This document shows, piece by piece, positions 32,346-35,862 of a DNA stretch of 36,975 bases (the first letter of the stretch is position 1; each line of letters opens with the position of its first letter). The position numbers and the translations under genes are program-made. Source of the DNA: Thermanaeromonas sp. (GTDB taxonomy: Bacteria > Bacillota > DSM-521 > Neomoorellales > Neomoorellaceae); NCBI RefSeq assembly GCF_021890735.1, contig NZ_JAKKUR010000014.1, positions 1 through 36,975 on the forward strand, written 5' to 3'. Under the pieces are notes generated by a model. That model did no database searches. It worked only from the letters and a program-made list of their open reading frames with translations, and was not told the origin of the DNA.

Positions 32346-33632
32346 GTGGATGGAAGGGAAGGTGTTTTGACTTACTTTCCTGTGGAATCTTGGCTTGTTG
32401 AAAAGATGGCTGAGGCTGAAAAAGAAGTTAAAGAAAGCGGGTTGTTCTGTAGGATAGAGGAGACATGTGCTTTAAATCACTATAAGGTGCTCAGAGCCTT
32501 TCAACAAGTAGGTGTAACCGATTTTCACTTTCAGGACTCCACAGGTTACGGATACGGGGATGTGGGGCGGGAGGCTTTAGAAAGGCTTTTTGCCATTGTG
32601 TTTGAAGGGGAAGATGCGCTAGTCAGGCCGCAGATTGTTTCGGGAACCCATGCCTTAAGTGCTTGTTTGAATGCCGTTTTGCATCCCGGGGATACGTTAC
32701 TTGCAGCATGTGGTAAGCCCTATGATACTTTGGCGACAGTCATCGGACTGGGTAAACGTGTAAGTGGTAGTCTTATGGAACGAGGTATACGTTATGCTGA
32801 AGTTGAGTTAACGCCTGAGGGGCGACCAGACCTAGAAAAACTTGCCGAGCAAGTCGAACGCTTAAAACCGCGGGTATGCTTCATTCAGCGCTCCCGGGGA
32901 TACAGCCAGCGTTCTGCCCTAAGCGTAGATACTATAAGGAAGATGATAAAGGTTGTTAAAAGTGCATACCCCGGAGCCGTATGCTTGGTGGATAACTGCT
33001 ATGGGGAGTTGGTAGAGATAGAGGAGCCTGGTGCGGCAGGAGCGGATTTGGTGGCGGGATCCCTTATAAAGAATCCGGGGGGTACTTTGGCCCCGGGGGG
33101 AGGATACATAGTAGGGAGGAAGGAATTGGTAGAAGAAGTTTCCTATTATCTTACAGCTCCCGGCCTGGGACGGGAGATGGGAGCTTTTTCCGGGAAACGC
33201 CTTTTATTCCAGGGTCTTTTTCTGGCACCTCTTGTCGTGGAGCAAGCTTTAAAGGGTGCGGTGTTGGCGGCGAGTTTTTTTCAAAAGCTGGGCTATACTG
33301 TGGATCCTTTACCAGAAGAAGTCCGGTACGATATAGTCCAAACCGTTACTTTAGAGGATAAAGAGGCGCTCTTAGCCTTTTGCCGGGGACTTCAGAAAGC
33401 GTCTCCAGTAGAGGCTGGCAGCGTGCCTGAGCCCGCCGTTTTACCCGGGTATGAAGATCCGGTAGTTATGGCCGGAGGTACTTTTGTACAGGGAGCCTCC
33501 CTCGAATTAAGCGCCGACGCCCCGGTACGCCCTCCATATACGGTGTTTCTGCAGGGCGGCGTCTCGTTATATTATACTAAGATAGGTTTATTGCTCGCGG
33601 CACAAGAGGTGCTACGTACTTGTAGGAGGTAA
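32346..33632 (+). CDS. YnbB-like PLP-dependent enzyme (methionine gamma-lyase / 'aluminium resistance' family)
   Basis: 428 residues from GTG 32346. It belongs to the fold-type I PLP enzymes: VSGTHALSACLNAVLHPGDTL near residue 97, CLVDNCYGELVEIEEPGAAGADL near 212 with the aspartate that contacts the pyridine nitrogen, and AGSLIKNPGGTLAPGGGYI near 238 carrying the likely Schiff-base lysine. The family includes B. subtilis YnbB, found after spoVK in the same order, and is annotated as aluminium resistance or methionine gamma-lyase; the true substrate is unproved. Confidence 0.9.
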   Translation: MDGREGVLTYFPVESWLVEKMAEAEKEVKESGLFCRIEETCALNHYKVLRAFQQVGVTDFHFQDSTGYGYGDVGREALERLFAIVFEGEDALVRPQIVSGTHALSACLNAVLHPGDTLLAACGKPYDTLATVIGLGKRVSGSLMERGIRYAEVELTPEGRPDLEKLAEQVERLKPRVCFIQRSRGYSQRSALSVDTIRKMIKVVKSAYPGAVCLVDNCYGELVEIEEPGAAGADLVAGSLIKNPGGTLAPGGGYIVGRKELVEEVSYYLTAPGLGREMGAFSGKRLLFQGLFLAPLVVEQALKGAVLAASFFQKLGYTVDPLPEEVRYDIVQTVTLEDKEALLAFCRGLQKASPVEAGSVPEPAVLPGYEDPVVMAGGTFVQGASLELSADAPVRPPYTVFLQGGVSLYYTKIGLLLAAQEVLRTCRR

Positions 33633-34143
33633 TACACGTTAGGTGTTGGCGGAAGGAGCCTGGTACCAGAAGAAAGAGGCGGCTAAAAATAGGTTATTTA
33701 ACTTCGGATAATAACTTCCGATAATAAGTATTATGTAAACCAAAAGTTCATATCGGGCTTTCCGGGCAATTCAAAAAGAAAAGGACCCGCTACTTATTTT
33801 CCGGGCCCCTTTCTGGGTCAACTATAATTTGATTACCCCGGATTTTATGCCATTCTCGGGCATGTATTTTGCTGCGCCTGTCGTGATTGGGTCCCTCGCG
33901 GCTTAAGCGGAACTTTTTTGTCATTCCAGTAACCCCTTCGTTTTACGTAAGTTTTATAGTTTTTCCCTATCTTTCCATATGGTATTTAGCTATATTGTAT
34001 TAAGGGGACGTCTTTTTGGATTTCATTTTTAGTATATCGCATTTGTAAAGGTTTAATTGATAATCATAGTGCGTAGATGGTGGAAATTAATTCCTAAATA
34101 GAGTGAATTATGTTGACAAATACTATATGCGGGAGGGATCGCT
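33633..34143. other. Long AT-rich intergenic region with tandem repeat and hairpin
   Basis: 511 bases without a recognised gene. A 13-bp tandem repeat, CTTCGGATAATAA then CTTCCGATAATAA, occupies 33702-33727. A GC-rich hairpin near 33782-33812 (AAGGACCCG with CGGGCCCCTT) followed by TTTC could be a weak terminator for the YnbB-like gene. TTGACA at 34113-34118 looks like a -35 box, but no good -10 lies 17 bases downstream. Confidence 0.5.
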
Positions 34144-34296
34144 GTGTTCCGAGCTCGTGCAGCAAGGGCTTACAGGCCCTGGAGAGGTTGGTTGCGCTGG
34201 CTCGCATGGTTAGCTTACCCCATGGGCTTGTTACACGGAGCTCTTCTCATGCGTTTCTTCTTCCACCCGAAGCAGGAGGCAAGCCCTCAGGGGTAA
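34144..34296 (+). CDS. Small Arg/Trp-rich, possibly membrane-associated protein (50 aa), unrecognised
   Basis: GTG 34144 is preceded by GGGAGG at 34131-34136. The frame encodes 50 residues beginning VFRARAARAYRPWRGWLRWL, then LAWLAYPMGLLHGALLMRFF, and a short polar tail ending in SPQG. The N-terminal part has six arginines and several tryptophans, followed by one hydrophobic segment, as in small amphipathic membrane proteins. The TAA stop lies inside the loop of an intrinsic terminator, so gene and terminator fit closely. A competing 103-codon frame (34110-34421) runs through the terminator and is less credible. It could instead be an sRNA. Confidence 0.5.
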   Translation: MFRARAARAYRPWRGWLRWLAWLAYPMGLLHGALLMRFFFHPKQEASPQG

Positions 34297-34314
34297 GCCC
34301 CTCCTTTTTGCTTT
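34290..34314 (+). terminator. Intrinsic terminator overlapping the small ORF stop
   Basis: AGGGG and CCCCT form a stem around TAAG (34289-34302), with an outer GGAGG 34275-34279 / CCTCC 34300-34304 alternative, followed by TTTTTGCTTTTT. Confidence 0.75.
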
Positions 34315-34392
34315 TTGGCATATATCTCCGTTTCCCCTTTTATATTTTTACTGAGACTAAGTTTATGAGTTTTGACGGGGGAACAGAAGTAA

Positions 34393-35394
34393 GTGTTTTT
34401 GTTTACGACTCCAGACTGTGATATGTGGAAGATATATTCTTCTAGACGGTCGCTTTTTTACACTTACACTTTAGTAGGTTATCCTCTAAAAGGAATTTCT
34501 TCCTTTCTGGGAGCTATAGACAAGAGAGGACATTTGCACTTAATCCTCAAGTTGCATGATAATCAGCATGTTTATTCTTTTTGGGAAGGGCAGCGTTGGC
34601 ATACTCTCCCTCTCCCCCTTCAGGGGTGCGAACGAGTACATGGTTTAGTAGTAGACAATACTGGAAAGACGCATATTTTGTTGAGGCTACAAGGAGAAAC
34701 GATACACCTTATCCGCTACCGTGGGCAATGGTTTATAAAAAACCTTCCTTTTAAGTTGTATGGAGAACCTTTATGTATTCAACTTTGGGAAGGAGAATAT
34801 CTCTTTGTCTGCTGGGAGGAGACAAAGCAAAACGTAAAGAAGATATTTTATACTTTTTATCAAAAGGGAAATTGGTCCTCCCCTTCCCTATTGCTAGAAC
34901 AGCGTAATGAGGCTAAGTGTTATGTCTACTTTATAGATATTTCTAACAAAAGTTTCGAGATTTACTCTTTTGTTTGGGAACCTCAGGGACAAGAATATCA
35001 ACTGTACTGCTACACAGAGGCCAATAGAAAGACTCAATTAGCAACCCATATACTGGGGAAAACTTTAGGGTTTCCAGACAGTTATCCCCTTCTCTTAAGT
35101 AGTAGGAGTAATTATCTCCTCTGTTGGACAGTAAACGGCCAATTTACTTTTTCCCTTAAGGCAAAAAGGGGCTCTTGGAGCCGGCCCCAAGGAGATTATC
35201 TCTTCTTCCCCACAAGTATAAAACCACTTTTTACCTGGAACGGTTGGGAACATGATAAGGCTGCCTTTACCCGGGTGAATGGGTTAGACCTGGACTGGCC
35301 TTTGATCATAGGGGTTGATCAGATTTTACCCTACTGCAAGGCTGTTTTGGCCCTTTCCAACCCTTTTCGGCAATTAGAAGTACCACAAGGTTAG
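34393..35394 (+). CDS. Unrecognised 333-residue protein with beta-propeller-like repeats
   Basis: GTG 34393 directly follows an in-frame TAA, and the only upstream purine tract (GGGGG) is 11 bases away; ATG 34423 is the alternative start. The protein is rich in aromatic residues and beta-strand-like segments. Loosely repeated units of the form G(H/K)xHLxLxL (GHLHLILKL near residue 46, GKTHILLRL near 92) are followed by aromatic strands such as LIRYRGQWF and KIFYTFYQKGNWSSP. This suggests a beta-propeller or sialidase-like scaffold. No signal peptide or membrane helix is evident. The DNA is more AT-rich than the housekeeping genes, hinting at transfer or relaxed constraint. Function unknown. 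Confidence 0.7.
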   Translation: MFLFTTPDCDMWKIYSSRRSLFYTYTLVGYPLKGISSFLGAIDKRGHLHLILKLHDNQHVYSFWEGQRWHTLPLPLQGCERVHGLVVDNTGKTHILLRLQGETIHLIRYRGQWFIKNLPFKLYGEPLCIQLWEGEYLFVCWEETKQNVKKIFYTFYQKGNWSSPSLLLEQRNEAKCYVYFIDISNKSFEIYSFVWEPQGQEYQLYCYTEANRKTQLATHILGKTLGFPDSYPLLLSSRSNYLLCWTVNGQFTFSLKAKRGSWSRPQGDYLFFPTSIKPLFTWNGWEHDKAAFTRVNGLDLDWPLIIGVDQILPYCKAVLALSNPFRQLEVPQG

Positions 35395-35625: not shown

Positions 35626-35655
35626 TTGACTTTGTAGGCCAAAACGGCGTATAAT
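35626..35655 (+). promoter_or_regulatory. SigA promoter of the small HTH gene
   Basis: TTGACT 35626-35631, 18-base spacer, TATAAT 35650-35655, about 30 bases before the ATG. Confidence 0.75.
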
Positions 35656-35685
35656 TGAACCAGGCTATTGAAAGGAAGCATAACG

Positions 35686-35862
35686 ATGTCTGTAAGATTT
35701 TGGACGGTCACTGACTTAACGAAGGAGCTCAACATCTTGAGGAGGGTTATTTACAACGCGGTAACGAAAGGCCGGTTGTACGGAACCAGATTGGGTCCGC
35801 GGTTTTACATCCCCCATGAAGAGGTCAAGCGTATTCTCGGGACCGCCACGGGTCACAAATAA
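35686..35862 (+). CDS. Excisionase/MerR-like helix-turn-helix DNA-binding protein
   Basis: 58 residues from ATG 35686, with AAAGGAAG upstream. The sequence RFWTVTDLTKELNILRRVIY then NAVTKGRLYGTRLGPRFYIP and HEEVKRIL is the layout of the small winged-helix excisionase domain: recognition helix, wing with GPRFYIP, final helix. Such proteins regulate site-specific recombination or act as small repressors. No integrase lies in the window. A strong promoter with a palindrome directly upstream suggests autoregulation. Confidence 0.8.
   Translation: MSVRFWTVTDLTKELNILRRVIYNAVTKGRLYGTRLGPRFYIPHEEVKRILGTATGHK

Follow-up and report, generated by a model that had tools for sequence, protein, structure and literature searches.

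What kind of gene, if any, lies in the 760-bp gap downstream of ynbB in Thermanaeromonas sp.? In the window we analyzed, the whole 36,975-nt stretch of contig NZ_JAKKUR010000014.1, ynbB (Met_gamma_lyase family) ends at position 33632, and the long frame that follows begins at 34393. A preliminary description had proposed that the gap may hold a small, so far undescribed gene ending in a terminator of its own, and had compared its product to small membrane-acting peptides, either the toxin of a type I system or a regulator.

A conserved small gene in Moorellaceae

The frame is present as described, on the plus strand at 34144-34296 (GTG...TAA), preceded by the Shine-Dalgarno (SD) sequence GGGAGGGAT at 34131-34139 and translated into 50 residues, MFRARAARAYRPWRGWLRWLAWLAYPMGLLHGALLMRFFFHPKQEASPQG. 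Its TAA stop (34294-34296) does lie within the loop of an intrinsic terminator, AGGGG-UAAG-CCCCU-CC-UUUUU, at 34289-34309 on the plus strand, whose hairpin (AGGGG-TAAG-CCCCT, 34289-34302) is followed by CC and TTTTT. The mRNA is short, with its own ribosome-binding site and its own terminator.

When 101 genomes were searched in six frames at the protein level, orthologs came up in 13 Moorellaceae genomes besides this one. Identity is 80% in the sister genome G001, 67% in G006 and 45-56% in genus g7, Moorella (including M. stamsii, M. mulderi and M. thermoacetica), each of whose 11 genomes has a copy. These orthologs conserve the start codon, the SD, the reading frame, the stop and the terminator, and dN/dS values are mostly 0.1-0.4, reaching ~0.5 for the window gene against G006. 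Conservation in these 13 genomes, together with purifying selection, shows that the frame is a real gene and not a product of chance; the homologs that the preliminary description had asked for exist, and close relatives retain the frame on which its proposal depended. Profile searches gave one match per Moorellaceae carrier genome, at E values of 1e-22 to 1e-31, and found the gene absent from G002-G005 of the same family. In nearly all cases the ortholog sits 0.5-3 kb downstream of a DUF1540-spoVK-ynbB block, which is preceded by mutL-miaA wherever the locus extends that far; for G012 and G013 the gene position was confirmed by profile. The gene is vertically inherited, and Moorella-like spore-formers have long retained it.

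Two other readings of the locus were discarded. A 103-aa open frame at 34110-34421, in another reading frame, overlaps the candidate promoter, and searches showed the 50-aa frame to be conserved instead. A leader peptide or attenuator of the next gene is at odds with neighborhoods that vary by lineage, and an Rfam search of the locus returned no leader, or anything else, above the gathering score. The downstream DNA offers two observations of its own. The 333-aa frame at 34393-35394, which has no Pfam or NCBIfam match, is 73% identical in G001 and only 40% identical in G006 over its first 89 residues, and is a lineage-restricted protein. Near the contig end, a 64-aa frame (35668-35862) preceded by a good sigma-70 promoter-like site (35626-35655) gives a weak match, below cut-off, to an excisionase-type DNA-binding domain (TIGR01764, E 2e-4).

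The encoded peptide is basic and Trp-rich, with the one hydrophobic segment that had been noted before; AF2 models it as a single helix over residues 12-39 (mean pLDDT 68), and from its hydrophobicity we infer a membrane placement for this segment of a peptide shorter than 60 aa. Twelve residues are invariant across 12 aligned sequences, with the core WL..(L)AYPMGLL.G.L, represented in the window by LAYPMGLLxG. Neither the Pfam, NCBIfam and PADLOC profiles nor the phage and plasmid records searched gave a significant match.

Relatives extend beyond Moorellaceae. The Moorellaceae profile retrieved 45-60-residue open frames from five remote genomes (G134, G058, G129, G067 and G023; E 5e-6 to 1e-4 per genome), with an SD in place in 5/5 and CCTCC after the stop in 4/5, and iteration added G099, G105, G170 and G139 together with a second group, f17 and its relatives (MTRYRTTDGKED...AIPIAFINGLFFGGYALRKIRQYWEGGPMD). 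By these searches the family reaches about eight more Bacillota families, as a single-copy gene for a basic, single-helix peptide of 36-53 aa; 31 of the 398 genomes in a phylum sample are carriers, each with one significant match. Gene neighborhoods differ between lineages, and the gene therefore stands alone. Profile comparison by hhalign linked the Moorellaceae sequences to the f40/f49 group (probability 96%, E 1e-9) and f40/f49 to f17 (A4-A5; 94%, E 1e-7), whereas the direct comparison of Moorellaceae with f17 (A1-A5) gave just 34%. Homology of the f17-type proteins to the Moorellaceae gene is accordingly tentative, because it depends on iterated profiles and this indirect link.

Complementarity between the Shine-Dalgarno sequence and the 3′ end

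Just past the stop codon, the window gene carries the anti-SD CCCCTCC (34298-34304, plus strand), the partner of the SD at 34131-34139 in the predicted pairing. An anti-SD of this kind, CCCTCCTTT, follows the stop codon in most family members and is far commoner there than in control genes: CCTCC occurs within 45 nt of the stop in 24/31 homologs, representing 9/11 lineages, versus 12 of 201 strong-SD genes drawn from the same DNA (binomial p 5e-10 by lineage), and the longer CCTCCTT in 20/31 versus 1/201. Seven of the 31 members have no CCTCC. This complementarity, like the depth of conservation, is new beyond the preliminary description, which saw neither. Whether the motif could instead serve a minus-strand gene as its SD was also considered, a reading rejected when the copies were inspected by eye and the minus strand had no start codon at the usual spacing. 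Separately, a Moorella protein gene with a hydrophobic N-terminus and the ending '...EQLDLSKF..' (L038, 13320-13940, minus strand; also in L033, L035 and L040) carries, in a conserved C/T-rich 3′ UTR, CCTCC motifs that are complementary to the SD of that gene (GAAGGGAGGTGAG/CTCATACCTCC); it may be another case of complementarity between SD and 3′ end.

Equilibrium folding of whole messages predicted pairing of the SD with the 3′ end at a probability of ~1 in most members; the mean in 27 SASP mRNAs was 0.24. Trimming the 3′ end of the CCTCC-bearing members lowered predicted SD pairing from 0.99 to 0.63, and pairing of the SD remained fairly frequent (0.80) when the 3′ end was shuffled. The window transcript has a folding z of -2.3.

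Could the complementarity be functionless, a by-product of GC-rich terminators in an ordinary gene for a small membrane protein? We consider this unlikely, though it deserves real weight. Every strong SD is complementary to CCTCC, and in several members the motif shares bases with the local terminator stem or sits right beside it. Compensatory changes are missing as well: no SD/anti-SD covariation beyond the generic consensus was found, the sole clear matched change being that in L089 (GGAGGCA/UGCCUCC), and pairing an SD with its own 3′ end is predicted at -13.7 kcal/mol versus -13.2 kcal/mol with the 3′ ends of other lineages. Against a by-product, CCTCC is commonly placed after the hairpin stem and before the T-run, a position in which termination does not require it, and in L062, L094 and L122 the local stem is slight. 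It was likewise missing from all 16 control genes with terminators and rare after the stop of SASP genes (2/29).

A candidate forespore promoter

Upstream of the window gene, a promoter candidate resembling those read by forespore sigma factors spans 34096-34125 on the plus strand, with AAATA (34096-34100) and AATACTA (34119-34125) separated by 18 nt, and is conserved in the alignment. The Moorellaceae consensus is [GA]NATA-N18-[GA]A[TA]A[AC]TA, with GNATA-N18-GATAATA in Moorella, and f40 genes carry GAATT-N18-CATACTA or TATACTA; no clear site was seen upstream of the f49 and f17 copies. A promoter-like score of 9 was reached by 59% of genes versus 5% of shuffles, a comparison among phylogenetically dependent genes, and individual sites each have p about 0.03 against shuffles.

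SASP-type forespore genes (SigF/SigG) offer a likeness, being monocistronic genes of spore-formers with a strong SD and a similar promoter-like GNATA...ATANTA. They differ in encoding a DNA-binding rather than a membrane-type protein, in having no 3′ anti-SD, and in the promoter itself, which within the same family reads GCATA-N17-CATACTA, with a spacer of 17 rather than 18. Although sigG is present in 31/31 carriers, it is weak evidence because 330 of the 398 sampled genomes (83%) also have it, and its presence was set aside as an uninformative discriminator; G002, G003 and G005 have sigG and lack the small gene. Given the partial N18 matches and the prevalence of sigG, a forespore role is a weak lead rather than a result.

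A proposed self-locking message and the type I toxin comparison

In the reading we prefer, which we hold at about even confidence, the gene stands alone in single copy and encodes a small basic membrane peptide with one helix; its mRNA would be locked, and the peptide is possibly made in sporulation or dormancy. Once transcription is complete, the 3′ end would fold back onto the SD and close the transcript, and translation would be restricted to nascent or 3′-trimmed mRNA, as in hok and aapA. More speculatively, a forespore-type sigma factor (SigF/SigG) might drive transcription, and the peptide might work in the spore membrane during development or dormancy, a setting that a locked mRNA held in store would suit.

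Such a message recalls type I toxin loci, of which a non-translatable primary transcript is a hallmark, and hok and aapA mRNAs likewise use long-distance SD/anti-SD interactions (PMC6733600). The earlier comparison with type I toxins therefore survives in part. The size of the peptide, its single hydrophobic helix and its charged ends agree with a toxin; TxpA/BsrG, BsrE, YonT and the Clostridioides difficile CD toxins have 28-60 aa, one membrane segment and a charged C-terminus (PMC6563280). The predicted closure of the mRNA from 5′ to 3′ end agrees too: as with AapA/IsoA and hok/Sok, a small membrane peptide is encoded by an mRNA whose SD is predicted to be sequestered by an anti-SD in the 3′ end (PMC6733600), a likeness drawn on predicted mRNA folds, with the anti-SD of the present gene located at the stop codon and terminator.

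The remainder of the comparison is so far unsupported. Neither consensus scans nor conservation of the flanks revealed the antisense RNA that had been suggested as a check: the scan saw no antisense promoter or terminator at the window locus, and the flanks are conserved only at the promoter and terminator of the gene. An antisense RNA may lie inside the frame. A single strong antisense promoter came up near a Moorella copy (L007 1855-1826) and was rejected, as it reads tRNA-like sequence that is absent from other Moorella species. This tRNA-like sequence lies on the opposite strand ~150-200 bases past the small gene in L005, L006, L007, L012 and L013; some Moorella species have it and others do not. 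Whereas Gram-positive type I toxins sit mostly in prophages (PMC6563280), and TxpA/BsrG, BsrE, YonT and the CD toxins have overlapping antisense RNAs, neither feature was seen here. Distribution also lacks the multicopy, sporadic pattern of mobile elements: the gene is chromosomal, with one match per genome, syntenic in Moorellaceae, and has neither phage or plasmid relatives nor Pfam, NCBIfam or PADLOC similarity. Single copy, chromosomal location and the absence of a detected antisense RNA or mobile-element link argue against an ordinary type I pair, and a locus comprising a membrane toxin, a locked mRNA and an unseen antisense RNA seems to us quite improbable.

C-rich regulatory RNAs of Gram-positive bacteria act on the SD sequences of other mRNAs. 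A dual-function RNA whose C-rich 3′ end mimics the 16S rRNA tail and acts in trans in this way would suit the anti-SD, a generic sequence (CCCTCCTTT) without adaptation to the gene's own SD, but folding predicts full pairing of that end in cis, and we judge this explanation very improbable.

A bolder and doubtful step is to see here a family of developmental membrane peptides across about ten families of spore-forming Bacillota: their mRNAs would close on themselves from 5′ to 3′ end and could be stored in the forespore or spore until germination or stress brought the 3′ trimming that unlocks them, an RNA switch in the style of type I toxins but lacking an antitoxin. For the acetogens and their relatives, our results add a deeply conserved, apparently unnamed membrane peptide, and they suggest that a chromosomal core gene without an evident antitoxin uses the long-distance SD lock known from type I toxin mRNAs.
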